Assembly (NCBI GenBank): GCA_002707785.1
Contig: PANW01000084.1
Span: forward strand, 1-64,000
DNA length: 64,000 nt
Reading direction: 5' to 3'
Source of the DNA: Cellvibrionaceae bacterium
Lineage (GTDB): Bacteria > Pseudomonadota > Gammaproteobacteria > Pseudomonadales > Cellvibrionaceae
Part shown: positions 34,819 through 52,782 of the stretch, piece by piece
How positions within the stretch are numbered: the first letter of the stretch is position 1
Layout of the letters: each line of letters starts with the position of its first letter
The notes under the pieces: generated by a model
Seen by the model: the letters and a program-made list of their open reading frames with translations, nothing else
Database searches by the model: none
Told to the model about the DNA's origin: nothing
Program-made: the position numbers and the translations under genes

Positions 34819-34859
34819 AGGACACTCCAAATTGATACGATTCGCTTAATTGTCTCAAT

Positions 34860-35401: not shown

Positions 35402-35530
35402 ATGGTAGATTGTGGAAGTGATTCTAATGACGCTGGTGTCATTAAGAGCTCCATCAAAACTAAAAGGCCTGTGGAAACCACATAGGGAAAGGGAAACTGG
35501 CGTGGAGCCTACCATATAGGAGAGATGTTA

Positions 35531-36727
35531 ATGACTTGGGAACATCAAGATAAAACCGCCATTGTTGGTGTTGGCGCAACCCCCTATTACCCACGGGGTA
35601 CATCCGAACCCAGAACTATTTATGAAATGGCGGGTGATGCAATCCTTGGCGCGTGTGAGGATGCCGGCATCAATGTCAAACAGATAGATGGTTTCGCTTA
35701 TTACTCGGGCGCGACTGCGGGTTATACCGATAAAATGGATACTGCTGACTTTATGGAGTTGCTGGGTATTCCTGAAGTCACGTTTACAGCATCACTCACC
35801 AGTGGCGGTGGTGGCTCGGCAGGTGCTGCAGGACTGGCAACCGCCGCTATTGTGTCTGGTCAGGCCACCTATGTGGTGACGGTCATGGCTCTACAGCAAT
35901 CCAAGTCCCGTTTGGGGACCGTGTTTGGTCAGATAGCCCCGGATCCTATCAACTCTTTTTTACAGCCGTCAGGTTTGGTTGGGCCTGGACATTTGATGTC
36001 CGTGTTGGCCCGTCGTCATATGCATCTTTATGGGACCTCCCGTGATGCCTTTGCCGAAATCGTGATGGCCACCCGTGAAAATGCCGTCAATCGCCCTACG
36101 GCTGTGCGTCGTAACCCTCTGACTAAAGAGGAGTATTTTAATGCGCCGATGATTGCAGACCCTCTTTGTCGTCTGGACTTTTGCCTTGAAACCGATGGCG
36201 CTGTGGCCTTTATCACAACGTCCTCTGAGCGTGCGAAAGATCTGAAACAGAAACCCGTTTACATTCACGGCTGTGCTCACGGCGGAACCCGAGACTGGGG
36301 GCGTGCGTTTGCCTGGATGGGGATGCCGGATGAAGCTTTTGCTTCGGCTGGCAACAAGCCTATTGCCAATCGATTGTGGAACGATACCGGTCTTAGCCCA
36401 AAAGATATAGATGTGGCTCTGTTGTACGATCATTTCTCGCCCATGGTGTTGATGCAGCTTGAAGATTACGGTTTCTGTGAGCGCGGTGAAGGAGATGCCT
36501 TTGTGAAGAGCGGGGCGATTCGCTACGGTACGGGCTCTATTCCTGTAAATACCCATGGTGGACAGTTGTCTGAGGCTTACATTATTGGTATGACTCATGT
36601 GCGTGAGGGGGTGGAGCAGTTGCGTGGTACCGCGGTCAATCAAGTTGACGATGCTGAGTTTGCATTGGTCACTGGTGGACCGGCTTCACTGCCAGTGTCA
36701 GGTCTGATTTTGCGAGGCGATAAATAA
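35531..36727 (+). CDS. Thiolase-fold lipid-transfer (Ltp2-like) protein, probable aldolase subunit
   Basis: 398 aa from ATG 35531 (GGAG eight bases upstream; the ATG at 35525 is too close). Thiolase-like fold (AIVGVGATPYYPRGTSEPRT at the N-terminus), but where thiolases carry the nucleophilic Cys the text is TSGGGGSAGAAGLA, with no Cys. A C-terminal His lies in VNTHGGQLSEAYI. This is the pattern of SCP-x/Ltp2 proteins, which with a DUF35 partner perform retro-aldol C-C cleavage of tertiary beta-hydroxyacyl-CoA esters in steroid side-chain breakdown. The stop overlaps the start of a DUF35 gene (TAATG), strongly supporting a heteromeric complex. Confidence 0.85.
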   Translation: MTWEHQDKTAIVGVGATPYYPRGTSEPRTIYEMAGDAILGACEDAGINVKQIDGFAYYSGATAGYTDKMDTADFMELLGIPEVTFTASLTSGGGGSAGAAGLATAAIVSGQATYVVTVMALQQSKSRLGTVFGQIAPDPINSFLQPSGLVGPGHLMSVLARRHMHLYGTSRDAFAEIVMATRENAVNRPTAVRRNPLTKEEYFNAPMIADPLCRLDFCLETDGAVAFITTSSERAKDLKQKPVYIHGCAHGGTRDWGRAFAWMGMPDEAFASAGNKPIANRLWNDTGLSPKDIDVALLYDHFSPMVLMQLEDYGFCERGEGDAFVKSGAIRYGTGSIPVNTHGGQLSEAYIIGMTHVREGVEQLRGTAVNQVDDAEFALVTGGPASLPVSGLILRGDK

Positions 36728-37155
36728 TGTCTGATAATCTTTCCAAGATGTTGCCCGGTGACCGCATCAAAATAACCACCGACACATGCACGGTGGGTTT
36801 TTGGGATAAAGCCAAAGAGCATAAACTGACGGCTTGCCAGTGTGCCAGCTGTGGCAGATTCCGTATGCCTCCAAGACCTTTTTGTCCCGATTGCCAGAGC
36901 AAAGAGATCAACTGGCCGGAGTTACCGGGCACGGCAACAGTTTATAGTTTTGCCGTATGTCATAAGTCGCCTTTTTCTGGTGAGGAGTTGTTGTATATTC
37001 CGGCGGTTCTGGATATTGATGGCGCACCGGGAGCGCGATTGACCTCGAATCTGGTGGGCTTTGATCCTGATCAGGTGGAAATTGGTATGAAGGTTAAGGT
37101 GGATTGGTATTCGATTACAGAAGATTGGGTGTTACCGGTGTTTGTTCCGGCTTAA
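36727..37155 (+). CDS. DUF35 Zn-ribbon/OB-fold acyl-CoA-associated protein
   Basis: 142 aa. A rubredoxin-like Zn ribbon is at residues ~38-60 (CQCASCGRFRMPPRPFCPDC, two CxxC pairs), then an OB-fold (TVYSFAVCHKSPFSGEELLY). Such proteins pair with thiolase-like partners; in steroid catabolism the DUF35 domain of ChsH2 activates Ltp2. Its ATG overlaps the stop of the thiolase-like gene by one base, so the two are translationally coupled. A strong terminator follows. Confidence 0.9.
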   Translation: MSDNLSKMLPGDRIKITTDTCTVGFWDKAKEHKLTACQCASCGRFRMPPRPFCPDCQSKEINWPELPGTATVYSFAVCHKSPFSGEELLYIPAVLDIDGAPGARLTSNLVGFDPDQVEIGMKVKVDWYSITEDWVLPVFVPA

Positions 37156-37964: not shown

Positions 37965-38285
37965 CTAAAACTGGCTTTCTGGTAAATGTATGATCACGCC
38001 ATCTAATTCAGGTTTGACTTCCACTTGGCAGCATAATCGGCTGCTCGGCTTGCGATCAATCGCACCTTCTAGCATGTCCAGTTCCATTTCATTTGCGGGC
38101 CCTACTTTTTCGAGCCAGGTATCGTCTATAAAACCGTGGCAGGTGGCGCAGCTGCAGGCCCCGCCGCACTCTCCCAAAATTGAGTCAACGCCATTATCGA
38201 TGGCAACTTGCATTAGATTAGTGCCATCGATGGCTTCAATTTCGTGACGGGTGCCGTCGGCATTTTCAAAAATTACGGTTGTCAT
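37965..38285 (-). CDS. [2Fe-2S] ferredoxin
   Basis: 106 aa from ATG 38285 (TTTGGAG upstream); an open frame extends to 38342 but the shorter form matches its paralogue exactly in length. Cys40, 46, 49 and 86 ligate the cluster; Cys44 and Cys85 are additional. Close relative of the ferredoxin at 31955-32275. It directly follows a TetR gene (19-base gap), repeating the TetR-ferredoxin order seen there. It would serve one of the two P450s in the window. Confidence 0.93.
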   Translation of the reverse strand: MTTVIFENADGTRHEIEAIDGTNLMQVAIDNGVDSILGECGGACSCATCHGFIDDTWLEKVGPANEMELDMLEGAIDRKPSSRLCCQVEVKPELDGVIIHLPESQF

Positions 38286-38304
38286 GGGATCGCTCCAAAA
38301 GAGA

Positions 38305-38922
38305 TTAAGATTTAATTGGTGCCTGCTGGATTTGGCCATCAATGCACCAGTTTAACTGTTGAGTGCAACGTTTCAGTGCTGCAGGAGAGTTATCGTTACT
38401 GGTATCGACACTGATGCCAATGACCAGATTTCGGATCATCGCCGCAATCAGTGGTATATCGTCTGGTAATTGCCGATTTGCTTTGTGGTACATCGCCGAC
38501 AATGATTCAGTGATATTGCTGTTTACCGCTGTCACATACTGGTTATAGCGTTTGGCAAATTCCGGATTGCGTTTGGCATGCAGTTGGACTTCGATATTGA
38601 AAAGCCCCCATTCGGCTTGCTGTAGATAGCTAATAAACTCTTCCGACATTTTCTGGTAGGTGATATTCAGGTTGTCGGAGTCGGCAATCATGCTTTGCCA
38701 TTTGACGATCTCGCGCTCATGCTGTTCTTGTAGAAGCTCGAGCAGCAACTCTTCTTTGGTGGAGTAGTTGGAATAGAAAGCACCACGGGAAAAGCCCGCA
38801 TCCTCGGTAATACGATCAATAGCTGCGCCCGAAAAGCCATTACTTGCGAAGGCCTTCAGTGCGGCGCTTTTGATTTTTTCCTGAGTTTCCAAACGCTTTT
38901 CTTCGCGCGATAACCTGGCCAT
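38305..38922 (-). CDS. TetR-family regulator
   Basis: 205 aa. Helix-turn-helix AAIDRITEDAGFSRGAFYSN with the family's YSTKEELL continuation, then a ligand-binding helical domain. In the operon SDR - ALDH - TetR - ferredoxin. Operator-like site 41385-41400 stands at the head of that operon, so this is a good candidate to bind it. Confidence 0.93.
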   Translation of the reverse strand: MARLSREEKRLETQEKIKSAALKAFASNGFSGAAIDRITEDAGFSRGAFYSNYSTKEELLLELLQEQHEREIVKWQSMIADSDNLNITYQKMSEEFISYLQQAEWGLFNIEVQLHAKRNPEFAKRYNQYVTAVNSNITESLSAMYHKANRQLPDDIPLIAAMIRNLVIGISVDTSNDNSPAALKRCTQQLNWCIDGQIQQAPIKS

Positions 38923-39012: not shown

Positions 39013-40485
39013 TTATGGCGCCAAGCTAACACTCTTCAAAAACACAAACTCATCCAGACCAGGACGACCGCCTTCCTTACCGTAGCCGGACAGTCCCAGG
39101 CCACCAAACGGTGCACAGGCGGGTATGTTACGTGAGCCATTGATGTGAACAAAACCGGTTTGCAGTGCAGCCGCCACGCGATGCGCGCGCTTAACATCCT
39201 GCGTGCGAATGTAGCCGCCCAGTCCATATTCAGTGGAATTGGCAATTTCAATGGCTTCTTCTTCAGTTTTGAATTTATGAATCACCAAAACTGGACCGAA
39301 GACCTCATGCTGGGCGATATCACTTTGTGGGTCTACATCGGCAAATACTGTGGGTGCCATATAGCTGCCGCCGGCCAGCTCACCGTCCAGTTCGACCGGC
39401 TGGCCGCCAGCGATCAGGCGCCCTGCGTTGCTCTCGATAGCGCGATCAATCATTCCCTGCACACGGGTAACCGCGTCAGCGTTGATGAGTGGGCCAACGG
39501 TAGTTTTTGGGTCCCAGGGGTCGCCGATTTTCAGATGGCTGGCAATCGTTGTAACTGCTTCCACCATTTGGTCATATATACCTTCCTGAACCAATAGGCG
39601 AGTGGGGAACTCACAGCCTTGGCCGGCCAGTAAGGACACGCTCATGCCTACAGCGTGTTGTGCGGTTTCCATCATGTTAGGGGCGTCATCATCAAAGACG
39701 ATGTTGGCCGATTTGCCACCCAGCTCCAGTACCGCGGGCTTCAGATGTTCGGCGCATTGCGCCAGGATCTTACGCGCGGTGATCGGGCCGCCCGTGAAGG
39801 TAACTTTCTTCACGTCTTTGTGAGCGATCAGTGTCTGTGCGGATTCCACGGCACCGGGCAAAATATTAATGACACCATCGGGAATGCCCGCCTGCTTGGC
39901 AAGCTGTCCAAATAATGTTGCTACGAAGGGTGTCTGCTCGGCGGGTTTAATGACCACGGTGTTGCCTGCAGCCAACGCCGGAGCGACCTTCATTCCCAAT
40001 GAAATCAGTGGGCCATTCCAGGTGATGATAATACCAATCACACCGTAGGGCTCTGGGACGGTATAAATCAATTCGTCCCCTGGGGTGTGACTGACCACTT
40101 GACCGTCCAGCTTGTCTGCCCAGCCCGCATAATAACGAGTCCACTCTTCGCCGATCATGGCACCGGCAACCGCCATGGAATAAGGCGTACCGCCTTCGAT
40201 CGTGGACAAACGCTGGAATTCATCGGCGTTTTCGACGATTAGGTCGGCCAGTTTATTGAGCAAATCGCGGCGTTGTGTCGGAGACGTCTTGCGCCAGACT
40301 TCAAAGGCCTCTTTGGCGCAGGCAACCGCTTGGTTGGTTTCCTTGGCTCCGGCCAGTGGCACTTCGGCCTGGGCTTTACCTGTGGCAGGGTTAATGTGGG
40401 TAAATGTACCACCTGAGCCAACAGTCAGCTCTTCGCCACCGATGATCAGTTTAGCTTGAATAGGGGTGCGATCAACAGTTGTCAT
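39013..40485 (-). CDS. Aldehyde dehydrogenase
   Basis: 490 aa, full-length class 1/2-type. Catalytic Cys in LLAGQGCEFPTRLLV, general-base Glu in VLELGGKSANIVFD, NAD-binding FTGGPITARKIL. It is 59 bases after the SDR gene in the same operon and would oxidise the aldehyde to the acid. Its length is close to the geranial dehydrogenase GeoB, but substrate specificity cannot be read. Confidence 0.93.
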   Translation of the reverse strand: MTTVDRTPIQAKLIIGGEELTVGSGGTFTHINPATGKAQAEVPLAGAKETNQAVACAKEAFEVWRKTSPTQRRDLLNKLADLIVENADEFQRLSTIEGGTPYSMAVAGAMIGEEWTRYYAGWADKLDGQVVSHTPGDELIYTVPEPYGVIGIIITWNGPLISLGMKVAPALAAGNTVVIKPAEQTPFVATLFGQLAKQAGIPDGVINILPGAVESAQTLIAHKDVKKVTFTGGPITARKILAQCAEHLKPAVLELGGKSANIVFDDDAPNMMETAQHAVGMSVSLLAGQGCEFPTRLLVQEGIYDQMVEAVTTIASHLKIGDPWDPKTTVGPLINADAVTRVQGMIDRAIESNAGRLIAGGQPVELDGELAGGSYMAPTVFADVDPQSDIAQHEVFGPVLVIHKFKTEEEAIEIANSTEYGLGGYIRTQDVKRAHRVAAALQTGFVHINGSRNIPACAPFGGLGLSGYGKEGGRPGLDEFVFLKSVSLAP

Positions 40486-40544: not shown

Positions 40545-41312
40545 TTACAGGCGGGCAATAGTACCGCCATCAACTGGCAGAATCTGTCCGTTGATATAGC
40601 TGGCCTGATCGCTCAACAGAAATACGCCAACGCGGGAAATCATCGCCGCTTCCGCCACTTCACCGGTTGGATTGCCCAGCATGGCAGTCCATTGAGACAT
40701 TTGCTCAACCGACATAATGGGTTGCATCCCTTCGGTATTGACAGTGCCAGGGGCGATGGCATTCATGCGAATACCCTTTGGTGCCAGAATGTGGGCGAGG
40801 TTGAGAGTGAGGGCATTGACCCCCGCTTTGGAAACCGAATAGATACCGGTTGTCTGCCAGGCGCCAATGGAAGAGGTGTTGACGATAGCACCGCCGCCGG
40901 TCTCTTCCATGATGGGTGCAACGGCCTGAGTCATGAAAAGCACGCTGTTGGTGTTTACGTTCATGATACGCTGGTAGTCATCGATCGCGATCTCATTCAA
41001 GGGGGCAGCCGTGGCAGAACTCAGCAGGCCAGCGTTGTTTACCAGGTAATCGATACGGCCAAATCCCTCTTTGGTTTGCTGAGCGCAGGCGTTGCAGGAC
41101 TCCGGGGCACCGACATCAAGCTTGATCGCTAGTGCCTTGCCTCCATCGGCGTTGATGGCAGCGGCCACCGCTTCGGCCTTTTCACTGTTGATGTCGGCGA
41201 CCACTACGGCAGTGCCGGCAGCGGCCAGGATTTGGGCATAGGCTGCCCCCATACCCTGGGCTGCGCCGGTTATGATGGCTACTTTATCGTTGAAACAATT
41301 ATTTGAATTCAT
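40545..41312 (-). CDS. Short-chain dehydrogenase/reductase
   Basis: 255 aa from ATG 41312 (GAGGAGAG upstream); an upstream in-frame start at 41390 would overlap the operator-like site and is unlikely. TGAAQGMGAAYA is the NAD(P) loop, LVNNAGLL the NNAG motif, and the catalytic Ser/Tyr/Lys are in NTSSIGAWQTTGIYSVSKAG. Ends in the usual PVDGG. First gene of the SDR-ALDH-TetR-ferredoxin operon; probable alcohol or 3-hydroxyacyl oxidation. Confidence 0.93.
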   Translation of the reverse strand: MNSNNCFNDKVAIITGAAQGMGAAYAQILAAAGTAVVVADINSEKAEAVAAAINADGGKALAIKLDVGAPESCNACAQQTKEGFGRIDYLVNNAGLLSSATAAPLNEIAIDDYQRIMNVNTNSVLFMTQAVAPIMEETGGGAIVNTSSIGAWQTTGIYSVSKAGVNALTLNLAHILAPKGIRMNAIAPGTVNTEGMQPIMSVEQMSQWTAMLGNPTGEVAEAAMISRVGVFLLSDQASYINGQILPVDGGTIARL

Positions 41313-41384
41313 ATTTCTCTCCTCGAGCGCAGCAACGCGTCTATATTTGGCTAGGGCTTGTTTTTCTATCCTGTTATTAAAAAC

Positions 41385-41400
41385 AATCATTTATATGAAT
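41385..41400. promoter_or_regulatory. Operator-like site AATCAT-N4-ATGAAT
   Basis: AATCATTTATATGAAT, one mismatch in the right half, 73 bases upstream of the SDR operon start. Confidence 0.6.
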
Positions 41401-42136: not shown

Positions 42137-42577
42137 CTAGCTTTCGCTTGTTTTTAGAGTGGCTATTAATAGAGACGCTATCACCAACACGAACGCCAGA
42201 ACACCAACAAGAAACAATCCGTGGTTTAGCGTGTTCCAATCCATTCCAGTTGCAATAGCACCACGACCTCCTGTGAGGGCACTACTGGTTGAGGCAACGG
42301 CATTGGTCCAACCGCAGGTGATCAAGGCCCAACTCAGAGTGGACGATTGCTTCTGGCTAACGGTCAAAAATTTTGTGGCAGTCGCTACCGAAAGCATCAG
42401 CAGGGCATTCAACAAACATTCCAAATGGGCCATGTTCCAGGCGCGAGTATCAACGCTAGCTCCCGGTGTCGTTAGCTGTTCAATGACAGCCTGCCCGTAC
42501 ATAAAGCCGGTTATTGCTGTTAGCACTAATATAAGCGCCGCATTTAAAATAACACGCTTAAAATGTTTCTGATTCAT
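42137..42577 (-). CDS. Four-helix membrane protein, possibly styrene-oxide-isomerase-like
   Basis: 146 aa with four membrane helices (LNAALILVLTAITGFMYGQA; HLECLLNALLMLSVATA; WALITCGWTNAVASTSSAL; HGLFLVGVLAFVLVIASLL). The layout, the AHLxxLLNALLMLxVA stretch, the GWTN in helix 3 and the glycine-rich loop before helix 4 recall styrene oxide isomerase (StyC), a heme-containing four-helix membrane enzyme that turns epoxides into aldehydes. This is remote, pattern-level similarity only. It starts 20 bases after the terminator that follows the linalool-isomerase-like gene, so read-through would be needed. No good ribosome site. Confidence 0.55.
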   Translation of the reverse strand: MNQKHFKRVILNAALILVLTAITGFMYGQAVIEQLTTPGASVDTRAWNMAHLECLLNALLMLSVATATKFLTVSQKQSSTLSWALITCGWTNAVASTSSALTGGRGAIATGMDWNTLNHGLFLVGVLAFVLVIASLLIATLKTSES

Positions 42578-42658: not shown

Positions 42659-44578
42659 CTAAACCTGTGGAGTGACGGTCACAGCAGTCCGGCCATCGAG
42701 TTGAATGGACTCAGTTATTTTACCTGAGTCGCAAGCCTGAATATTTTTCTCTGTTCCATTTACACTAAAGGTATAAGGTGTATTGGGCTTCAGGCGCTCC
42801 ACGGTGAGGGGGTGTTCCCCTGCGCCATTTCCAGGATAGAGCACCAGATCTAAGTCGTTACTCGTGTGGCTGTAAGCCTTGGCAACCAGCACTTCAGGAT
42901 AACTCACATCGGTTAAGATCGGTCCTTTAAGGGTGGTCTCAGACGGCCCTTGAGTAATGGCATTGCGCCAATCGTTGCGACGCAAGATTCGGGCACGGGC
43001 GATATTGGCATTGTTGGAATTGGAACATTTGTATTCTATAGAACCGTCGCTGGTCTCTTTACGAAATTCGGCGTCGAGCATCTCCAGTGCAACATCCGCC
43101 AATTCATCATCACCAAATTCACGGGCTGCTGCCATAACATTTTGGATGTTAGCAGCCTGACTTTTGGTGTAGTTACCCATATCAATGCCTTTTTCAGGCA
43201 GACGGATTTTCAATTTTCCGTTTTCCGTATACGTCATTTCCTCACGCGCAAAAGCCCAAGCCTCCAGCGCACGATCGTGGTTGATGGGATTGAAAAAGAA
43301 TGAGCGCCCTTCATCGGCAAAAGGAAAAGGAATGGCGAAGCCCGTCAGATTGGAACGCAATGCCATCACACTGCCATCCAGCTGCGTGAACTCGGTGTCC
43401 AGCTTGTTAACAAATTGGTCGTAGATGTCGTTGAAGTGGGTAGTGCCAAACAGGCGATCGTAAACAGCCAGCGCTTTCATGGCCATAAAGTTACACGGGG
43501 TGTAAACCCAGTTCGGTTCGCAAGGATATAAGCAAAAGGCTTGCTCTCTTTGGTTGTCCACAATCGATTGGATTAGCGTATGAATGCTGTGTTTGTATTC
43601 TCTGTTTTTACTGTATTTAAACGTCAGGCTGCCTGGTTCGGTGTAGCGCCGGTCACCGGTGTTTGACATATACAGTCCGATTTGAAGACAGTAAAAGCCG
43701 GTCAACATGATGTTGTCTTTAACTGCAGGATTGAAATTAAAATTAAAGTTACCCCACATGTTTTCCAGTGGCCAATAACCCCAGATTTGACGTTCCAATA
43801 CTTGTGCAATCAACGTTTGCTGGGCGTCGTTTAAGTAGCCATGAAAATTGGGCGTATAGTGACACTGCATGGTACTCAGGCAGTAGCCAAGACCGTTGAA
43901 CTGATAGCGAAGGGAAGCTGTTTGGAACTGATCAATCTTATTGAAACCTTGGTATTGACCAATTGGTTGAAGGGCGCGATCAAAAGAGTAGCGCAGGTTG
44001 GCCAGTTGCTCTTCGGTCAGTTCGCGAGTGCCGGGTGTCGGCTCATCACTGGCACGCGCTTTGATTTCAGTCAGAGTTTGGGGCAAATATTTTTTACGCT
44101 CAGCTTGCCGTTTGAAATTGTCGGCTAGCTGCTTGCGCCCTTTGGTTATTTTTCGCGTTTCGCGAAAGACGACCAGCGCCAGAGTGATGTAGAGTGCAGG
44201 TGCCCAATTTGCATCACTGCTACCACTCAGCATACTACCAGCCCAAATGGCGGAGCCTGCCCAAACAATCACCGGAGCAATGATCGCGCCAGTCCCGAAC
44301 CACACGAACAGAGATAGCATATACAGCGCATAGGTGAGGGGCATTAGTAATATTGCCCAACCGCCCACGGAGAGAAAGCCTGCACCAGGGAATACCAAGC
44401 CTAATCCGGCAGCTTGCAATACTGAAGACAAGTTTAATAAGGTGGGCGTGAGACCAATAAGGCCTAGCACGATAAAAAAGATTGACGTTCTACGTAAACG
44501 GCTTTTGGATAGAGGCCCGTCGTTAGTCGTTTTGGTTAACCTGGGACTACTGTGTAGCATCTCGTTTATAGCGCTCAT
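42659..44578 (-). CDS. Membrane-anchored linalool isomerase/dehydratase-like protein
   Basis: 639 aa. Residues ~30-140 hold four to five hydrophobic helices. From ~190 the sequence follows the (alpha/alpha)6 linalool dehydratase-isomerase (Ldi) domain: IWGYW (~265), NPAVKDNIMLTGFYCLQIGL (~283), TGDRRY (~307), and CEPNWVYTPCN with Cys353 and Cys362 spaced exactly as the two active-site Cys of Castellaniella Ldi; VYDRLFGT follows. The Ldi active-site His in the DNIM..GH segment is Phe295 here. Total length and membrane N-terminus match the linalool isomerase of Thauera linaloolentis (about 644 aa), which interconverts linalool and geraniol. Late gene of a long operon with acyl-CoA ligases and dehydrogenases. 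A role on another tertiary allylic alcohol is possible. Confidence 0.85.
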   Translation of the reverse strand: MSAINEMLHSSPRLTKTTNDGPLSKSRLRRTSIFFIVLGLIGLTPTLLNLSSVLQAAGLGLVFPGAGFLSVGGWAILLMPLTYALYMLSLFVWFGTGAIIAPVIVWAGSAIWAGSMLSGSSDANWAPALYITLALVVFRETRKITKGRKQLADNFKRQAERKKYLPQTLTEIKARASDEPTPGTRELTEEQLANLRYSFDRALQPIGQYQGFNKIDQFQTASLRYQFNGLGYCLSTMQCHYTPNFHGYLNDAQQTLIAQVLERQIWGYWPLENMWGNFNFNFNPAVKDNIMLTGFYCLQIGLYMSNTGDRRYTEPGSLTFKYSKNREYKHSIHTLIQSIVDNQREQAFCLYPCEPNWVYTPCNFMAMKALAVYDRLFGTTHFNDIYDQFVNKLDTEFTQLDGSVMALRSNLTGFAIPFPFADEGRSFFFNPINHDRALEAWAFAREEMTYTENGKLKIRLPEKGIDMGNYTKSQAANIQNVMAAAREFGDDELADVALEMLDAEFRKETSDGSIEYKCSNSNNANIARARILRRNDWRNAITQGPSETTLKGPILTDVSYPEVLVAKAYSHTSNDLDLVLYPGNGAGEHPLTVERLKPNTPYTFSVNGTEKNIQACDSGKITESIQLDGRTAVTVTPQV

Positions 44579-44623: not shown

Positions 44624-44944
44624 TCAGTGATGCGGATGTTGACTTGCATTATTCGTGGGTGCACATTCACGGTGAGATAGGGAACTGTCACATTCGTAAG
44701 AGGGTTCCATCCAAGCGATAATATGGTGCCAATGCAAGGTGCCGTAGGCCGCGGTGGAACCGATCATAAAAACAGGTATTGCCACACTCAAACTGCGACG
44801 CCAGAGTGAGGCTTTTGTTTTTCCATTTTCTTCGGGCTGCCAAAGTGAGCCGTCTTCGACCTTGAAGCCTAAAAAACCTTTGATTCTTCGATAGATCACC
44901 AAAAAATTGGTGATAATCATTGCAGCGAAAATACAACAGGCCAT
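44624..44944 (-). CDS. Small membrane protein next to the isomerase
   Basis: 106 aa from ATG 44944 (GAGGAGT eight bases upstream). Two hydrophobic helices (CCIFAAMIITNFLVIY; LSVAIPVFMIGSTAAYGTLH), a basic linker, and a His/Cys-rich tail (HWHHIIAW; YECDSSLSHRECAP; ending HPHH) that could bind metal. Family not recognised. It is 34 bases after the ligase gene and 45 bases before the isomerase-like gene, so it may be an accessory subunit of that membrane enzyme. Confidence 0.7.
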   Translation of the reverse strand: MACCIFAAMIITNFLVIYRRIKGFLGFKVEDGSLWQPEENGKTKASLWRRSLSVAIPVFMIGSTAAYGTLHWHHIIAWMEPSYECDSSLSHRECAPTNNASQHPHH

Positions 44945-44978: not shown

Positions 44979-46541
44979 TCAGCTTGTGGTTGGGTAGCCG
45001 CCACCGCCGTGATCTTTATCCACCTGAGTGCGATTGATTTGCCCATCACCACCTCGGGGGAGCTGGGTAACAAATTCCACCAACTTAGGCTTTTTATAAG
45101 ACGCCAGGTGTTCTCGGCAGTGTTCAGTAAGCACTTCGGCGGTCACTTCTTGTTCGCTGTCCACGACCACAACAGCTTTTACATTCTGTTGCCATTTAGG
45201 ATCGGGGACGCCAATTACGCACACATCATTAACCGCCGGGTGCTTGCGTAAGCAGGCTTCTACTTCTGCGGGGTAAATATTCTCGACGCCGGATTTGATC
45301 ATGGTGGTTTTCGGTCCGACAAATGCAATAGAACCATCGTCAAGACGCATGCCGAGATCATTGGTGCGGTGCCAGCCATCGCGACTGCGGCGGTTGTTTT
45401 CATTTTCACGATCGAGGTAGCCATTCATGACTTGTACGCCGCGAACCGCAATTTCACCGGTTTCGTTTGGCGCTTTTTCGTTGCCCTCATCATCCAGAAT
45501 ACGCACTTGCGCTAATGGCGATACACGGCCTGCGCCACCACCTCCGAGCCAGCCCATGGTGACAAACCCCATGACTTCTGTTTGACCGTAAACGCGGGGT
45601 TCTTTATTGAAAAGCGCATCGACAGGCATGACCAGAGGGCTGTTCCACTCGGGCGCATCCGGTGTAGACCACAAGCTGCTTGTGTCATATTTGCCCGCGG
45701 TATTGATCTCACGGATTTGCATCAATGTTGGCTGCACCACAAAGGCATGAGTGACTTTGTGAGCCTCAATCAGTTGCAACATTTCTTCTGCATCAACACG
45801 GGCGGTGAAGACATTTTTACCACCGAAACAAAAGGTTGCCATGGTTGATAGCATGGTGCCCAAGTGGAACAGTGGACCTGAATTCAGGTAGACCGAAGAT
45901 TCATTAATAGTCTGACCATAGGCGATCATTAAACTCTGATAGAGAAACGCTGACTGTGATAACAGGGCTGCATTAGGACGACCATCAAAAGCGGCGGTGT
46001 ACATGGCCACGACAGGTGTGTCAGGGTGTATATCCAGATTGGGATCAGTATCCGGCAAGGAAGCTATCAGGGCTTCATAGCTCTGTTGCTCATTGGTATC
46101 GCCATCGTGCTGAATCCAGTGTGCCTGGTGGGTCGATTTTTCCCGTACTTCGGTTGCAATGTCAGCTAGATCAGTTGCTTGCCACAGGACAATAGCTGGC
46201 GCGTAGTCATCAACAACGGCTGTCATTTCAGCCGGGCTCTGACGCCAATTGATGGGACAGAGCATGGCACCAATTTTAGCGGCCGCTAATAAGGCTTCCA
46301 GCAATCTAAAGGAGTTTTGACCTAACCACAGTATGCGGTCACCTTGGCCGAGCTTCTGGGCAATCAAGAAATTAGCAAGTTGATTCACCCGGCTATCCAA
46401 TTGCGGCCAATTCAGCTTGAACTGCTCATCTACCACAGCGGTTTGCTGCGGACGTGAACGCCGATGTTCACGCAGGACATCGCCTAACCCATGCAATCGA
46501 ATATGCTGGTAGGCGCTGCTGGATTGCTCAAAATGACTCAC
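44979..46541 (-). CDS. AMP-binding acyl-CoA synthetase-like protein, altered active site
   Basis: 520 aa, GTG start with GAGGAA upstream. ANL fold: YGQTEVMGFVTM (A5), GWHRTNDLGMRLDDG (A7), GVENIYPAEVEACL (A8). The phosphate-binding loop, normally YTSGTTGxPKG, reads YTAAFDGRPNAAL, and the A10 catalytic Lys of PRTxxGKIxR is Gln in LPRGGDGQINRTQ. It may have lost adenylation, or belong to a divergent subfamily with another role. In the operon between an unknown gene and the small membrane protein. A second, canonical ligase heads the operon. Confidence 0.85.
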   Translation of the reverse strand: MSHFEQSSSAYQHIRLHGLGDVLREHRRSRPQQTAVVDEQFKLNWPQLDSRVNQLANFLIAQKLGQGDRILWLGQNSFRLLEALLAAAKIGAMLCPINWRQSPAEMTAVVDDYAPAIVLWQATDLADIATEVREKSTHQAHWIQHDGDTNEQQSYEALIASLPDTDPNLDIHPDTPVVAMYTAAFDGRPNAALLSQSAFLYQSLMIAYGQTINESSVYLNSGPLFHLGTMLSTMATFCFGGKNVFTARVDAEEMLQLIEAHKVTHAFVVQPTLMQIREINTAGKYDTSSLWSTPDAPEWNSPLVMPVDALFNKEPRVYGQTEVMGFVTMGWLGGGGAGRVSPLAQVRILDDEGNEKAPNETGEIAVRGVQVMNGYLDRENENNRRSRDGWHRTNDLGMRLDDGSIAFVGPKTTMIKSGVENIYPAEVEACLRKHPAVNDVCVIGVPDPKWQQNVKAVVVVDSEQEVTAEVLTEHCREHLASYKKPKLVEFVTQLPRGGDGQINRTQVDKDHGGGGYPTTS

Positions 46542-46640: not shown

Positions 46641-47324
46641 CTACGGATTTAGCTCTATTCGTGGGTCGGCATTACCACATTGACAAGCATCATGAAGGAT
46701 GCGTCCTTTTACACCCGTCTTGTAGTGCTGGAACGGGGTAGAACGAGCCAGGCGATTGGTCAATACTATTTCGCCATCCTGCTCTTCAGTCTTCCATTCA
46801 AATCGATCTATATGTGCGCCGCTGCCATGGGAGCATTCAATGGCAACGGCGGGGCCGAGTTCGATGAGATGGTAAACGTCTAATGAAGGTATTGCTTTTA
46901 ACTGCTCGTAGGCGTCTGAGCGTGCCCAAACCACCATGTTGGCGAATACATCCTCTGGGTTAAAACCCAGCTGCTCTAACCCTGTGAGAGTGTCGGCTGA
47001 TATTCCGGCAGCACCTGCTAATTGGAAGCGACGAGTAATGGATTCTACGCGTTTGGCGTCGTAGGGAGATGAATCTGCAGAGACAGCCACCATACCATAA
47101 GACATGATCGCACGTTCCAGCGGCATCAATTGTGCACCTTCATGAAACAAGGCGGTAATCATAATGTTGCTGCCCGTGCGAAAATGGAAGGTATTCAGCA
47201 CACGGGTAATGGCACGACGTGCCCGCTCCGCTTCTTCGGAAGAATATGGCAGGGGAGTAGGTAGCCCTTCTGCATTAGTGTAGCGGCCCACAGACATGGG
47301 CGATAATGTTGTTTCTGAGTTCAT
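46641..47324 (-). CDS. Unknown protein paired with a PaaK-like ligase
   Basis: 227 aa from ATG 47324 (GGAGGG upstream); the longer open frame to 47402 overlaps the neighbour. The segment VLNTFHFRTGSNIMITALFH, then LMPLERAIMSYGMVAVSADS, DAKRVESITRRFQLAGAAGI looks like the N-terminal Rossmann-type part of an AMP-binding enzyme, followed by a beta-rich end with a CQCGN motif. It lacks the P-loop and C-terminal domain. It may be a stand-alone half or a subunit; identification is weak. Confidence 0.6.
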   Translation of the reverse strand: MNSETTLSPMSVGRYTNAEGLPTPLPYSSEEAERARRAITRVLNTFHFRTGSNIMITALFHEGAQLMPLERAIMSYGMVAVSADSSPYDAKRVESITRRFQLAGAAGISADTLTGLEQLGFNPEDVFANMVVWARSDAYEQLKAIPSLDVYHLIELGPAVAIECSHGSGAHIDRFEWKTEEQDGEIVLTNRLARSTPFQHYKTGVKGRILHDACQCGNADPRIELNP

Positions 47325-47385
47325 GTTCAATGACCCTCCATAATTTTCGCTGTTCAAGGGGTGATGCCCTGTGATGTCGTAGTGG

Positions 47386-48699
47386 TTATGATTTTGTGAC
47401 ACGGGGAATTTTATTTGGCGGCCCGTTTTTCAGCAGTTCGGCATTATCAGTGAGATGAATGTTTACTGGAATATCCAGTTTGCTGCTGATTAAATCAGTC
47501 AGTCGACCAGCAAGTTCGTCAGTTGGGGTTTCTAAGCTGTTTTGATCATAACCAACACGTAAATTAAGAATATCTGCTTCGCGCTGTGGTCGAATAAGCT
47601 GAAACAATCCGCTGCTGGTTTCTTTAACGTTGCCAATCAGCGGAAAAATATCGATAGGCAGAATGGATTTTCCTTGAATTAACATTTCATCGCCTTTGCG
47701 CCCCAGGGGTTTCAAACGGCCGTGGGTTCGTCCACAGGTACAGGGCTGACGGGTAAAGCTGATGAGATCGTCGGTGCGAAAGCGAATCAGCGGCCCCACA
47801 TCATCCGCCAATGCGGTCACAACGAGTTCACCGCGAGTGCCATCGGCAACGGGCTCGTTTTTCTCCGGATCCAGATGTTCAACCAGTGCCAGATCTTCCC
47901 AGGTATGCATGCCATCGTGAGCTTTACATTCCATCGTGGTAGCGATATCACCCAGTGAGCTCAACTCGAAAATTTCCAGGCCCCAGGATTCAACCAAAGA
48001 GCGTAAATGCGGACTGAGTGGCTCACCACCAAAGACGGCGCCTTGGTAGGAAGAGAAGGCTTCACGCAGGTCTTCACCTGTATTTTTCTGGTATTGCTCT
48101 AAGGTCAGGATCACAGGCGTGGACAGCATGAACATGGCTTTTGGGCGAAGCTGACGGGAAACCTGGACAAAGTAAGGTATTTCATTGGGTAAATGCTGAA
48201 TTGCAATCGGACGCATGCCTGATTCCAGCCACTTGTCGGCGTTCAGCCCGTCGCGAAAAGTGAACAGCATATACGTCATGTAATCGTTACTGCGTACACC
48301 CATGTGCCACATTTCACGCTTCAAGCCGGTCAGGGAGATATGATCTTCGGAGCGAGGCAGTGGGGTCGGGTCACCCGTCGTGCCAGAGGTAAAGCCAACA
48401 CCGCGTAAGTGTGGCGCAGTTGCACACGCTAAGCCGCCAAACGGATCATCATGTTTGTCACGATAGTCACGGATCATGTCTTTGTCCATGAAAGGAACTT
48501 TGGCTTTAAAGTCAGCCAGTGAACGTATGTCATCTGGAGTAATGCCGGCTTCGTTCCATAAGGATTTCACCAATGGGGAACGTTGATAGACATAAGGTAC
48601 CAACTGTAAGATACGGGCTTCCTGAAGCTTTTCGATTTGATCGCGTGGCATGGTTTCGATATCTGCGTCGAAAAAGCGATCGTCATTTATAGCGGCCAT
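47386..48699 (-). CDS. PaaK-like phenylacetate-CoA ligase family protein
   Basis: 437 aa, the usual length. The phosphate loop is VGFTSGTTGDPTPLPRSEDH. The adenine-binding region is FGGEPLSPHLRSLVESWG..IFELSSLGD, and the hinge RFRTDDLISFTRQPCTCGRTHGRLKPLGRKGDEM contains the CxCG pair typical of PaaK proteins. Activates an aryl or other acid to its CoA ester through the adenylate. Same-strand neighbours suggest it serves the isomerase operon. Confidence 0.9.
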   Translation of the reverse strand: MAAINDDRFFDADIETMPRDQIEKLQEARILQLVPYVYQRSPLVKSLWNEAGITPDDIRSLADFKAKVPFMDKDMIRDYRDKHDDPFGGLACATAPHLRGVGFTSGTTGDPTPLPRSEDHISLTGLKREMWHMGVRSNDYMTYMLFTFRDGLNADKWLESGMRPIAIQHLPNEIPYFVQVSRQLRPKAMFMLSTPVILTLEQYQKNTGEDLREAFSSYQGAVFGGEPLSPHLRSLVESWGLEIFELSSLGDIATTMECKAHDGMHTWEDLALVEHLDPEKNEPVADGTRGELVVTALADDVGPLIRFRTDDLISFTRQPCTCGRTHGRLKPLGRKGDEMLIQGKSILPIDIFPLIGNVKETSSGLFQLIRPQREADILNLRVGYDQNSLETPTDELAGRLTDLISSKLDIPVNIHLTDNAELLKNGPPNKIPRVTKS

Positions 48700-48854: not shown

Positions 48855-49931
48855 CTACCAGTCTGCAAGATCGGCAACGCGCTTACGGTGCACCGATGGG
48901 GTGCCCAAGTAGGCGTAATTAAACAGTGCTCGTTTGAGTAAAATTTGAGTGTCGCACTCCCAGGTGTAACCAATACCACCGTGCGCTTCAATGGTATTAC
49001 GAGCTGTTTGTAGAAACCGGTCGCAAATGTGAGCTTTGGCCAACGCAGCTTGGCGCCGAGCGGCAAGGGGCTCGTGATCAAATGCGTATGCGCTGTGCCA
49101 ATACAGACCGCGCATGGGTTCTACCTCAAGAGCCATATTCGCTAGCTGATGCTTCATGGCCTGAAACGAGCCAATCAATACACCAAATTGGCTGCGGGTT
49201 TGCGCGTACTCAACGGCCTGATCAATGCAGCGTCGAGCACCGCCGAAACTGTCTGCGGCCAGTAATATCAATGCAGTGTCGAACACTTTAGCGGCTGCAT
49301 CTGTACTTCCGGCTAAATGTTCAATAGGTGTGTTATCCAGCTGGATGTCGGCAATGTGGCGAGTGCGATCAGTCAACTTTCTTTTATGCACACTTAAACC
49401 AGAGGCTCCGCGTTCGAGCAGAGCAAAGCCACCCTCGGCCAGAGCCATGACAATAATGTCGCTCTCGTCGGCATAGAGAACATGTTGCTTGGTTCCTGAA
49501 AGAGACTGCTCACTTTTTAGACTTAATTGCTCCGGTAGCCAGCAGTCGTTAGACTCTGCGCAGGCAAAGCTGCCCAGGATTTCTCCGCTGGCCAACTTGG
49601 GTAACCAGGCTTGTTTTTGCTCTTCGCTTCCGGCTTGCAAAATAGCTTGGGTACACAGCGCATGCCCTAAAAAGGGACCGGGGGTGGTGGCGTAGCCGAG
49701 GGTCTCTGTCAGAATGGCAAGATCCAACAACTCTAAACCGAGGCCGCCGTACGCTTCAGGAACAATCATGGCAGGTATGCCCAAGTCGACAATGCCTTGC
49801 CACAGTTCACGGGAGTGACCATCTTCGCTGTCAAAGATTTCGTGTAACGTCGTGGACGGACAGGTCTTTTCCAGAAACCGTCTTACGGAGTCTTGCATTT
49901 CGATTTGTTCGTCGGACAGTAAAAATTCCAT
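48855..49931 (-). CDS. Acyl-CoA dehydrogenase, probable beta-type subunit
   Basis: 358 aa. Standard N-terminal helical domain (EFLLSDEQIEMQDSVRRFLE), middle beta domain and C-terminal AHGGIGYTWECDTQILLKRA. The C-terminal Glu-Gly-Thr type motif is missing. It lies directly after a 399-aa dehydrogenase (76-base gap), the arrangement of alpha2beta2 heterotetrameric enzymes known for steroid and isoprenoid-type CoA esters, where one subunit lacks catalytic or flavin residues. Confidence 0.88.
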   Translation of the reverse strand: MEFLLSDEQIEMQDSVRRFLEKTCPSTTLHEIFDSEDGHSRELWQGIVDLGIPAMIVPEAYGGLGLELLDLAILTETLGYATTPGPFLGHALCTQAILQAGSEEQKQAWLPKLASGEILGSFACAESNDCWLPEQLSLKSEQSLSGTKQHVLYADESDIIVMALAEGGFALLERGASGLSVHKRKLTDRTRHIADIQLDNTPIEHLAGSTDAAAKVFDTALILLAADSFGGARRCIDQAVEYAQTRSQFGVLIGSFQAMKHQLANMALEVEPMRGLYWHSAYAFDHEPLAARRQAALAKAHICDRFLQTARNTIEAHGGIGYTWECDTQILLKRALFNYAYLGTPSVHRKRVADLADW

Positions 49932-50007: not shown

Positions 50008-51207
50008 TCAGGTGTCGCCGCTCTCGCGTGGCAGCCCTAAACCGCGTTCGGCAATAATATTGCGTTGGATATTCGAGGTGCCGCCGGCAATAGCCACACC
50101 TAATGACCCCATCAACTGGTTGAGCCATTTTTCAGGCCCGGTAGCACGTCCTTTGGTGGGTGGCATGTACAGCAAGTTCTCGCCAAGAAGATCTTTCGCT
50201 AAAGCCGCAACTTCGTGACCGATATTGGTGTTAATCAGTTTGTTCATCAGTCCGACATAACCTGAGTTTTGTTTGGCGGCTGCCATGGAAAGCTGACGGT
50301 AATTAGAGTACAGGTGTGACTGTACGTAGCCTTCTAATGTCACAAGACGGTCGCGAATAATCGGGTCTTTAATGGCAGGCTGACCGTTAAGCGTGGTCTC
50401 TTTCGCCAGTTGCAATAATTTCTCAAACAGGTTGACAGATGTTTGAGCGCCACCGATGGAACTCCGCTCGTGTTTCAGCGTGGATTTTGAGACTTTCCAA
50501 CCATCTCCACGCTGGCCGACAATCCAGTCAGCAGGTGTGCAGGCATCATCAAAAAACACTTCGCAAAATTCAGTGCCGCCTGTAACTTGCTTAATTGGAC
50601 GAATGGTAATGCCGGGTTGTTTCAGATCGATCAGTAAATAAGAAATGCCTGCGTGTTTACCGGCATCTGGCTCAGTGCGGGCAAGGACAAACATGTAATC
50701 GGCGTATTGCGCTAGTGTGCTCCAGATCTTCTGACCGTTGATAACCCATTGCTGACCTTCAGGCCCATCGCGCAATTCTGCGCGAGTTCGTAACGAGGCT
50801 AGGTCTGAACCGGCGTTGGGCTCGGAGTAACCCTGTGCCCATTTATATTCACCCGTGAGGGTTTTGGATACAAACCGCTCTTTTTGTGCTTGAGTGCCGC
50901 ATTCGAGCAGTGTAGGTACCAACATCATATTGCCGATGCCTGGGGCTTCCATTGGAGCCCGTACCTTGCTGAATTCTTCTCGAATAATGGTGGCTTTAAG
51001 AATATCTGCTTCTTGCTCAGAGCCGCCAAATTCTTTGGGAACGGAGCGATAGAGGTAGCCATTTTCAATAGCTTGCGTGCGAAACCATGCCTCTTGTTTG
51101 TGGCGAGGTTGCTCAGCAATTTCAGCGGGCACAGGCCAATGGCCTTTCAGAAACTCGGCAACGGTGGTTCTGAATTGTTCGTATTCGGCGTTGTAACTGA
51201 GATCCAT
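50008..51207 (-). CDS. Acyl-CoA dehydrogenase, probable alpha-type subunit
   Basis: 399 aa, GGGGAG before the ATG. WAQGYSEPNAGSDLASLRTR and GQKIWSTLAQYADYMF are the substrate and flavin motifs; the C-terminus has AGGTSNIQRNIIAERGLGLPR as in FadE-like steroid/isoprenoid dehydrogenases. Adjacent to 48855-49931, with which it probably forms a heteromer. Second gene of the operon headed by the ligase at 51262. Confidence 0.9.
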   Translation of the reverse strand: MDLSYNAEYEQFRTTVAEFLKGHWPVPAEIAEQPRHKQEAWFRTQAIENGYLYRSVPKEFGGSEQEADILKATIIREEFSKVRAPMEAPGIGNMMLVPTLLECGTQAQKERFVSKTLTGEYKWAQGYSEPNAGSDLASLRTRAELRDGPEGQQWVINGQKIWSTLAQYADYMFVLARTEPDAGKHAGISYLLIDLKQPGITIRPIKQVTGGTEFCEVFFDDACTPADWIVGQRGDGWKVSKSTLKHERSSIGGAQTSVNLFEKLLQLAKETTLNGQPAIKDPIIRDRLVTLEGYVQSHLYSNYRQLSMAAAKQNSGYVGLMNKLINTNIGHEVAALAKDLLGENLLYMPPTKGRATGPEKWLNQLMGSLGVAIAGGTSNIQRNIIAERGLGLPRESGDT

Positions 51208-51261: not shown

Positions 51262-52782
51262 TTACTGAGCCCGTTCATTGAGAAAAAGCTGGGTCACGTC
51301 GTGCTTACTGATTTTCATCGACGGTGTGCGTGGCATTTCAGGCAGTATTTTAAAGGCGACGGGTATCTGATATGACGTTAGGTGTTCACGTAAATATAGC
51401 TTTAAGTCATCCAAATTGATGTCGCTGAATCCTGGTTGAAGCTGAATGGCTGCAACCGGCACCGCACCAAGGCGTTGGTCAGGAATGCCCACCACGCAGG
51501 CGTACTTGATAGCCTCGTGCTTACGTAAAATGGTGACGACATCGGCTGGGATGATTTTGAAACCACCGCGAATAATAGCGTCGTCAGAGCGACCGCGAAT
51601 ATACAAAAAGCCATCTTCATCGATTTCGGCGAGATCTGTCGTCCGGGTCCAGTCACTGTGTCCAATTTGTGAGGTTTTGACTTCAAGCAGGCCAGGAGTG
51701 CTATGGGATAACTCTTCTCCGCTGTCCGGATCCACGATGCGCATTTCAACGCCAGGCTGTACGCGGCCAACCGATCCGCGCTTAGTACTGCCAAATTTTC
51801 TGTGATCCTGAATGGTCCAGCCAGCAACGGCCCCAGCAAACTCAGTGGCTCCATAAGAGTCTAGAAGGGGAACGCCATATTTTGCTTCAAAGCTTTCGTG
51901 CAAATCCGAGGGCATGGGCGCACTGCCCATGCGTATGGCCAGCAAGCAGCTCAGATCTTCTTTGGGAACATCGGCATCGTAAATCATACGGATTGCAGTC
52001 GGTGGGAGTGCCACCAGCTTAGGCTGATAAGCTTGTAAAGTGCGACGCATTTCATCAACGCTGAATTTCTCCAGAATGACGATGGGGCGGGCGGAAGTTA
52101 TGGCTGCCATTGCCGCGTACATACCGCCAATATGAACTAATGGGGTGGTGAGTACTGCGGGTGTTGATTTGAGTGCTACTTCATCCTGTTCATTATGGCT
52201 GCTGTAGTGACCGGGTACGCCCATCAGCGAAATGGCAAAGCTTTTATAGGGTAATTTGATTCGTTTGGCGGGACCGGTGGTGCCACTGGTGAGCATCAAT
52301 ATGCAGGTGTCAGGTAGAGGCTCGTGATGATTTTGCCCTGTAGGTTGTTGGTGGCCGTTGATCGCCTCGACACTCAGGGTTTCCTGCTGGGAAATCTGAA
52401 ACAGTGCGGCACCGGTTTCGGCTGCGGCTTGCTGAATAGCAGGCTGCGCCCAGTCGTCGGTATCTGCAACTAGAACAGGCAGGTTCAGTTTTTTGATGTC
52501 GGCCGCAACTTTCTCGGGGCTCTGGAACGGATTGATGCTCACAACACAGCGGCGCGATGACAGCAGTTGCATCACGCAGGCCACATGAGCTGGGCGGTTG
52601 CGGAGCAATACGCCGATAGGTGCACCTTGTTTTTGTCCGGCGGACAGTAAAAGGGATTCCAACTGTGCCATGGTGCTACTGACATCTTTCCAGGAGTACC
52701 AAGTGCCTTTGAATTCCAGGGCGTTAGCCGGCGGTGAAAGCTGTACGACAGTGGCGATTCGTTCGGTGAGTCCTGGTTGCAT
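51262..52782 (-). CDS. Acyl-CoA synthetase (AMP-forming)
   Basis: 506 aa. Motifs are intact: LMLTSGTTGPAKRIKLP (P-loop), DSYGATEFAGAVAGW, TTDLAEIDEDGFLYIRGRSD, and the C-terminal catalytic Lys in PRTPSMKISK. First gene of the long minus-strand operon down to the isomerase-like gene. Operator-like repeat 52855-52879 lies 73 bases upstream. It probably activates the acid formed from the island's substrate. Confidence 0.93.
   Translation of the reverse strand: MQPGLTERIATVVQLSPPANALEFKGTWYSWKDVSSTMAQLESLLLSAGQKQGAPIGVLLRNRPAHVACVMQLLSSRRCVVSINPFQSPEKVAADIKKLNLPVLVADTDDWAQPAIQQAAAETGAALFQISQQETLSVEAINGHQQPTGQNHHEPLPDTCILMLTSGTTGPAKRIKLPYKSFAISLMGVPGHYSSHNEQDEVALKSTPAVLTTPLVHIGGMYAAMAAITSARPIVILEKFSVDEMRRTLQAYQPKLVALPPTAIRMIYDADVPKEDLSCLLAIRMGSAPMPSDLHESFEAKYGVPLLDSYGATEFAGAVAGWTIQDHRKFGSTKRGSVGRVQPGVEMRIVDPDSGEELSHSTPGLLEVKTSQIGHSDWTRTTDLAEIDEDGFLYIRGRSDDAIIRGGFKIIPADVVTILRKHEAIKYACVVGIPDQRLGAVPVAAIQLQPGFSDINLDDLKLYLREHLTSYQIPVAFKILPEMPRTPSMKISKHDVTQLFLNERAQ

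Follow-up and report, generated by a model that had tools for sequence, protein, structure and literature searches.

What would a membrane-anchored relative of linalool dehydratase/isomerase (Ldi) be doing among the coenzyme A (CoA) ligases, acyl-CoA dehydrogenases and cytochromes P450 of a Cellvibrionaceae bacterium? The question is raised by the first 64,000 nucleotides of contig PANW01000084.1 (assembly GCA_002707785.1), here called the window, in which a first-pass annotation made from the letters alone had singled out the open reading frame (ORF) at 42659-44578. That observation is confirmed, and its interpretation is partly supported. The reading favored here, to which we give a probability of about one half, is that the protein would be a membrane-anchored enzyme of the linalool isomerase type, acting in terpenoid-alcohol breakdown together with a cleavage step of the Ltp2 type and with a small accessory subunit, called MxCC after the first residues of the protein. 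Two adjacent genes carry the argument:

42659-44578, minus strand: membrane-anchored Ldi-like enzyme (gene ldi), 639 amino acids, assigned from Pfam PF18566, the Ldi entries of the PDB, hydropathy, alignment, tree and low-confidence models.
44624-44944, minus strand: small membrane protein, 106 amino acids, starting MACCI, with GAGGAG upstream of the start.

The larger ORF encodes an Ldi-family protein with a hydrophobic N terminus. A hidden Markov model search, as the first-pass annotation had proposed, places the Ldi family PF18566 on residues 224-518 (E 2.2e-84), its 284 bits being far above the curated cut-off of 26.1. The attribution of the whole C-terminal two thirds to Ldi was generous, because the match is limited to that stretch and residues ~555-639 are modelled, with low confidence, as a separate C-terminal beta domain. 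The solved Ldi matches the single sequence with E 1.1e-07 and a 12-member profile of the enzyme with E 1.7e-22. Pairwise alignment with the solved Ldi pairs Cys170 and Cys179 with Cys353 and Cys362, the two residues that had been said to keep the active-site spacing, and pairs His128 with Phe295 and Cys101 with Glu262, Cys48 being outside the aligned stretch; Cys353, Glu354 and Cys362 form a conserved C-E...C cluster. For Ldi itself, the available parts of two papers list D38, Y44, H128, C170 and C179 in the active site (PMC12455561, PMC6600392) and describe a Cys48-Cys101 disulfide as essential, capping the active-site cavity and substrate channel (PMC6600392).

The first 155 residues have a mean hydropathy of +0.65 versus -0.54 for the remainder. 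The hydrophobic part (~30-137) is divided into six overlapping segments in one analysis and four separate peaks in another, and it has basic flanks, a pattern that agrees with the membrane-helix N terminus already recognized and described for the linalool isomerase (Lis) of Thauera; on which side of the membrane the Ldi-like domain lies, we infer. Two AlphaFold2 models, built with three sequences each, reached a mean predicted local distance difference test score (pLDDT) of 48 and 56. In a VIA alignment of the low-confidence model at 56, solved Ldi occupies ranks 2-11 (Z 8.0-8.4, 184-197 residues) behind a phage tail protein (Z 8.8), and Foldseek places Ldi at rank 3 (E 1e-3), mostly among glycoside hydrolases, so that the overlays give weak support to the Ldi fold.

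A comparison of 49 aligned rows of the family reveals the C-E...C cluster in 48, the exception being a second ORF that adjoins a normal one. In that locus (L031 9412-11702), two overlapping tandem ORFs match the Ldi profile, the second lacking the cluster. The position of His128 is occupied by H in 6 rows, F in 9, Y in 14, W in 18 and A in 1, with one gap, being aromatic in 41 of 49. In the tree of 45 rows (the second ORF of L031, L044, L085 and L086 were dropped), the window protein belongs to a clade of 25 rows (Shimodaira-Hasegawa-like approximate likelihood ratio test, 99), here called the anchored branch, that has no His-bearing row; solved Ldi falls in another deep branch, long branches being flagged for L018, L019, L020, L026 and Ldi itself. 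Within the clade, the closest group is formed by Spongiibacter thalassae, a Zhongshania metagenome-assembled genome (MAG) and the Zhongshania-type genome G224 (support 99). The replacement of the Ldi histidine by Phe295 thus stands as an alignment, but not as an oddity of this protein, which is ruled out by the spread of F, Y and W through alignment and tree; since all 25 anchored rows have F, Y or W there, Phe295 marks the whole branch. The aromatic residue may mark an isomerase-only chemistry.

The second element is the small gene, on which the first-pass annotation was silent. An apparent gap of 400 bases before ldi, conserved in four of four operons (the window and three relatives), is in fact this gene, and the relatives' copies have AAGGAG or GAAGG ahead of the start. 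Substitutions among the three relatives fall mainly at the third codon position (for example 27, 14 and 58 at the first, second and third positions of 108 codons). The bias is weaker against the window copy (31, 25 and 42 over 75 codons), whose last ~25 codons look out of frame with respect to the relatives, its own C terminus being doubtful; overall, the strength of this evidence varies between pairs, from clear to weak, and the ungapped L081/L128 pair has no bias.

A profile of the four small proteins retrieves 23 rows at E <=5 among 5,202 ORFs of ldi loci, namely eight from the four members and their copies and fifteen from eight new places (E 2.1e-05 to 0.032), and all adjoin an ldi gene by coordinates, lying after it in Novosphingobium; a second profile adds L043. 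Two forms can be distinguished. The long form has ~100-130 amino acids, with M1, C3, C4, a His and a C-terminal Cys invariant in 13 sequences. The short form has ~50 amino acids and begins M[IL]CCVIG; it lies ahead of ldi in another five of the 25 anchored loci, and in L085. Counting ORFs of at least 45 codons that begin start-x-C-C-[IVM], one lies on the ldi strand within 600 bases of ldi in 18 of 25 anchored loci and in 0 of 19 loci of other Ldi branches. All told, the 488,283 bases of the anchored loci contain 19 ORFs of this kind, of which 18 are at the ldi flank, and the other branches have none in 205,581 bases; as the motif was chosen once seen and the loci are related, these figures show specificity and not a clean probability. 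Nearly all of the DNA behind the motif and profile counts was fetched around ldi genes, whole genomes entering only in a search of 72. There, the long form is found in 14, being present in 13 of 20 genomes with an anchored ldi (our own assignment, which includes the partial genes of G980, G1128 and G1139) and in 1 of the 52 others, the fragmented assembly G1145; G1130 gives one further weak match (E 0.0076).

The small MxCC gene is therefore genetically linked to anchored ldi, a linkage that is new here, had been overlooked and extends over several bacterial groups. Searches of Pfam and NCBIfam with seven members at E <=1 returned nothing convincing, the best hit, at 0.037, falling below its cut-off. 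In Rhodococcus opacus and Allorhizobium, a CtaG-type or SCO-type gene follows the Ldi-like gene instead (L018 14074-14925, L023 9514-10014); proteins of both types are tied by name to cytochrome oxidase assembly.

What the small protein could do is suggested by the history of Lis. In the available text of PMC4791888, Lis expressed alone in E. coli is made as a membrane protein and is inactive, and the enzyme is active in native membranes, in an assay that needed a reductant and anoxic conditions. Because Lis alone is inactive and a di-cysteine protein is encoded beside the branch, this protein is a natural candidate for a missing partner. Text searches for "small protein" and "subunit" and the sections examined of that paper gave no such partner, and the titles listed for linalool isomerase with an accessory protein held none on point. 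The small protein is likely an accessory subunit of the anchored enzyme, where it would perhaps keep thiols reduced or bind a metal. A broader proposal, tentative and somewhat short of an even chance, is that the anchored branch is a two-component enzyme in which the redox or metal function of the small protein enables a thiol enzyme that is sensitive to oxygen to work in aerobes, its absence explaining the inactive Lis in E. coli.

The genomic context points to the pathway. On the minus strand, a run of genes with gaps below 160 bases extends from 52782 to 42659, where the small gene and ldi close it:

51262-52782, minus strand: acyl-CoA ligase dependent on adenosine monophosphate (AMP), first in the run, not kept in the relatives' operons.
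50008-51207, minus strand: large acyl-CoA dehydrogenase, 77-81% identical in relatives.
48855-49931, minus strand: small acyl-CoA dehydrogenase, 60-63% identical in relatives.
47386-48699, minus strand: PaaK-like CoA ligase, 66-71% identical in relatives.
46641-47402, minus strand: companion resembling the C-terminal part of PaaK (Pfam, genome searches).
44979-46541, minus strand: AMP-dependent acyl-CoA ligase, directly upstream of the small gene here and in three relatives, 69-71% identical.

Spongiibacter thalassae, the Zhongshania MAG and G224 share the operon, seven window proteins being 57-81% identical to theirs, and the context is conserved across two bacterial families. In these relatives, the operon genes, without the first ligase, form a single run that also includes a thiolase-like and a DUF35 gene. 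The PaaK-C-like companion was matched in 3 of 67 genomes, exactly those of the 67 with the operon, and the genome of the window has a second copy just past the window end. The first ligase is 52% identical to one at 68.8-70.3 kb of its own contig. Around that gene, at ~65.2-77.7 kb (L033), there is a set related to the operon genes, with a ligase, a dehydrogenase pair and a PaaK-like ligase with its companion. At 65.2-66.5 kb, a protein of 443 amino acids with a FAS1-like dehydratase domain (E 4.7e-07) is 53-54% identical to the product of the gene heading the relatives' operons, and a nitronate-monooxygenase-like gene past the window end is 73-77% identical to one inside them.

Five further genes of the window are relevant:

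40545-41390, minus strand: short-chain dehydrogenase, candidate allylic alcohol dehydrogenase.
39013-40485, minus strand: aldehyde dehydrogenase, candidate for the step from aldehyde to acid.
36727-37155, plus strand: DUF35 OB-fold partner of the ChsH2 type (Pfam), overlapping the thiolase-like gene by one base, 30-32% identical in relatives.
35525-36727, plus strand: thiolase-like retro-aldolase of the Ltp2 type, inside the ldi operon in three relatives, 60% identical.
33070-34830, minus strand: cytochrome P450 with a C-terminal DUF3237 domain, in a single ORF (Pfam).

The oxygen-using CoA-ester catabolic island that had been described around the gene is borne out. A 2Fe-2S ferredoxin (Fer2, E 2.8e-07) at 37965-38342 on the minus strand may serve the nearby P450s. 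Directly downstream of ldi, a hydrophobic ORF of 146 amino acids (42137-42577, minus strand; no Pfam match at E 0.1) is possibly a further operon member. DUF2889 proteins recur near the operons (L003 11994-12800, L004 11988-12812, L024 13402-14208, L033 9443-10441), the gene coming just after ldi in L003 and L004.

The thiolase-like and DUF35 proteins of the window, which the first-pass annotation had likewise passed over, have as their best solved matches the two chains of one entry, 6ok1_A (E 5e-66) and 6ok1_B (E 1.1e-25). Chain A we take to be TcLtp2, an assumption borne out by tyrosines at its positions 294 and 344. These correspond to the catalytic residues of TcLtp2, Tyr294 (in the motif YDHF) and Tyr344, as listed in the available part of a study of Sal, a related aldolase (PMC12329534). 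Both align with tyrosines in the window protein, and the YDHF motif and the second catalytic Tyr are kept in four of four sequences (window and three relatives). Thiolase-like neighbors of ldi in L073 and L079, from one gammaproteobacterial family (f211), were also considered as Ltp2-type proteins and ruled out, the YDHF-type motif searched for being absent.

Based on this gene content, the enzyme would convert a tertiary allylic terpenoid alcohol into the primary alcohol by a reversible 1,3-hydroxyl shift in which an allylic cation is formed and the conserved Cys/Glu/Cys cluster takes part. Nearby dehydrogenases, for which the products of 40545-41390 and 39013-40485 are candidates, would then oxidize this product to the aldehyde and the acid, and the operon CoA ligases would activate the acid to a beta-methyl enoyl-CoA. 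Hydration at the methyl-bearing beta carbon could be performed by the hydratase-like candidate at 65.2-66.5 kb, after which the Ltp2-like/DUF35 pair would carry out a retro-aldol cleavage to a methyl ketone and acetyl-CoA. Such a route would bypass the carboxylation step of the Atu pathway.

Several observations weigh against this scheme. The substrate is one that we infer, as are the reaction, the order of the pathway and the physical partnership of the two proteins. In the window, ~5.5 kb separate the Ltp2-like pair from ldi, which is on the opposite strand, the f211 loci have no operon of the window type, and the dehydratase-like ORFs of the relatives, cut at the locus edge, have no Pfam match at E 0.1. 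Seven of the 25 anchored loci (L018, L020, L026, L069, L073, L076 and L079) have no adjacent MxCC ORF. L069 stops at a contig edge, and another contig of its genome (L130) has the small gene with the beginning of an ldi-like frame after it; G1144, the source of L073 and L076, has its small gene elsewhere (L128), with no ldi match in the surrounding 13 kb. Two genomes, indeed, carry the small gene without ldi beside it, the stretches around these stand-alone copies having no ldi match (L128 6218-6550, L129 3883-4215). Also, the AtuA family has 0 matches in the genome of the window, which is only 87.6% complete, so this absence is weak; AtuA-family genes occur in 13 of the 22 genomes in which they were sought, among them both Zhongshania-type ones, which have them elsewhere in the genome. 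The genome of the window has a biotin-dependent carboxylase cluster elsewhere, assigned from a Carboxyl_trans match and, for the remainder, by reading its sequence, so an Atu-like route may also operate.

The pathway genes themselves raise the question of whether the substrate is an acyclic terpenol. The large acyl-CoA dehydrogenase has Tcur3483 (6wy9, 6wy8) and 4x28 as its best solved matches, the closest being Tcur3483 (6wy9), and both it and the thiolase-like/DUF35 pair find their best matches among steroid side-chain proteins of Thermomonospora curvata. Along with the P450 genes near ldi and a Ldi-like side-chain isomerase proposed in the available part of a paper on cholesterol breakdown, this would fit an igr-like operon in which the enzyme acts on the side chain of a polycyclic terpenoid or sterol, by dehydration/hydration or by a hydroxyl shift. 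Nonetheless, for the small acyl-CoA dehydrogenase other dehydrogenases are closer and Tcur3481 (6wy8) ranks only tenth, a Pfam scan of 36 window proteins (a subset of the window ORFs) brought up no conspicuous ring-degradation genes, a 25-hydroxysterol has no allylic double bond, and Ltp2-type chemistry suits any tertiary beta-hydroxyacyl-CoA. Action on a sterol or polycyclic side chain is thus regarded as unlikely, although it is the alternative that deserves most attention.

The demand of the Ltp2-type step for a tertiary beta-hydroxyacyl substrate could also mean that the Ldi-like protein is itself the hydratase of the operon, adding water to the enoyl intermediate and thereby forming the tertiary alcohol cleaved by the pair. 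To our knowledge, a CoA ester is unlike any known Ldi substrate, which counts against this role, and a separate hydratase-like gene heads the relatives' operons. Ldi does hydrate alkenes according to the available text of PMC4791888, but Lis is there described as differing from Ldi in dehydratase activity, and the anchored branch lacks the Ldi histidine, so a hydratase role appears the least probable of those considered. Hardly more credible is a role in detoxification, by which toxic terpene alcohols would be turned into less harmful isomers at the membrane, the location in a catabolic island being incidental. The same source, as far as available, argues for a defence role of periplasmic Ldi, and the gene is patchy (a match in 1 of 57 relatives besides its own genome, below the family cut-off), whereas the operon context is kept across two bacterial families. 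Terpenoid-alcohol breakdown by an anchored isomerase remains the reading that we favor.

Relatives of the enzyme also occur in aerobes. In counts that each include the genome of the window, PF18566 is found in 2 of 58 relatives (the other match being below the family cut-off), 11 of 390 genomes of the order, 6 of 369 of the class and 3 of 398 of the phylum, and in 18 of 36 genomes of f211. Among 72,556 plasmid records, 12 match the query P0001 at E 1e-5, with a coverage of at least 80% in three, from Rhodococcus opacus, Novosphingobium and Aureimonas. The first-pass annotation had described the known members as coming from anaerobes; this holds for the characterized ones and not for the family, given these plasmid relatives. 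P450 genes lie near two Rhodococcus Ldi-like copies. A neighbor scan of four f211 loci found oxygenases in two, L043 having Rieske oxygenase, luciferase-like and flavin-binding genes near ldi and L084 a flavin monooxygenase-like gene, and none among the few neighboring genes scanned in L073 and L070. Because oxygenases or P450s lie near several relatives, an oxygen-using setting is not rare in the family, and the idea that it is unusual here is ruled out by these loci and the plasmids. On the Aureimonas plasmid (L020 11240-14389), the anchored Ldi-like gene and one for a polyprenyl diphosphate synthase overlap, and a gene of the diacylglycerol kinase family comes next, neighbors that hint at polyprenol substrates. 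No phage match was obtained at E 1e-5, and none of nine candidate stretches of viral contigs encodes an Ldi-like relative. Literature searches by PF18566 returned nothing, those on Zhongshania and terpenes gave rubber work only, and the titles listed for sclareol-breakdown clusters held nothing relevant.

These results bear on a biochemical orphan, the membrane-bound linalool isomerase, for which the linked small gene makes the idea of a missing partner testable. Moreover, the operon points to a possible means of cleaving the beta-methyl enoyl-CoA esters derived from terpenoid alcohols that does not need the Atu carboxylase, and the anchored branch widens the known set of Ldi-type enzymes, which are studied for making alkenes and terpene alcohols.

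Finally, the locus can be compared with the known systems. Ldi from Castellaniella defragrans (5hlr, 5g1u) shares the domain family and the aligned catalytic cysteines, but it is periplasmic, with 371-397 amino acids in the solved chains, whereas the window enzyme is membrane-anchored and, having Phe295 for His128 and Glu262 for Cys101, lacks these features of Ldi sensu stricto. Lis from Thauera linaloolentis 47Lol (ENO87364), compared by its published description, is closer in architecture, with a similar length (644 versus 639 amino acids) and a hydrophobic N-terminal anchor followed by an Ldi-like domain; the available text places four predicted helices within its first 139 residues and its domain in the cytosol (PMC4791888). 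In the accessible part of PMC4847356, atuC, atuF and atuE stand at accessions consecutive with that of Lis, in contrast to the ligase and acyl-CoA dehydrogenase operon of the window, T. linaloolentis can respire oxygen and C. defragrans is reported without the Atu pathway. That pathway would degrade a similar beta-methyl enoyl-CoA, whereas the route proposed here would proceed by retro-aldol cleavage without carboxylation. For this cleavage, the closest known system is Ltp2-ChsH2(DUF35) of Thermomonospora curvata (6ok1). The window has counterparts of its two proteins, with YDHF and the second catalytic Tyr retained, the difference being that the pair is here linked to an Ldi-like enzyme.

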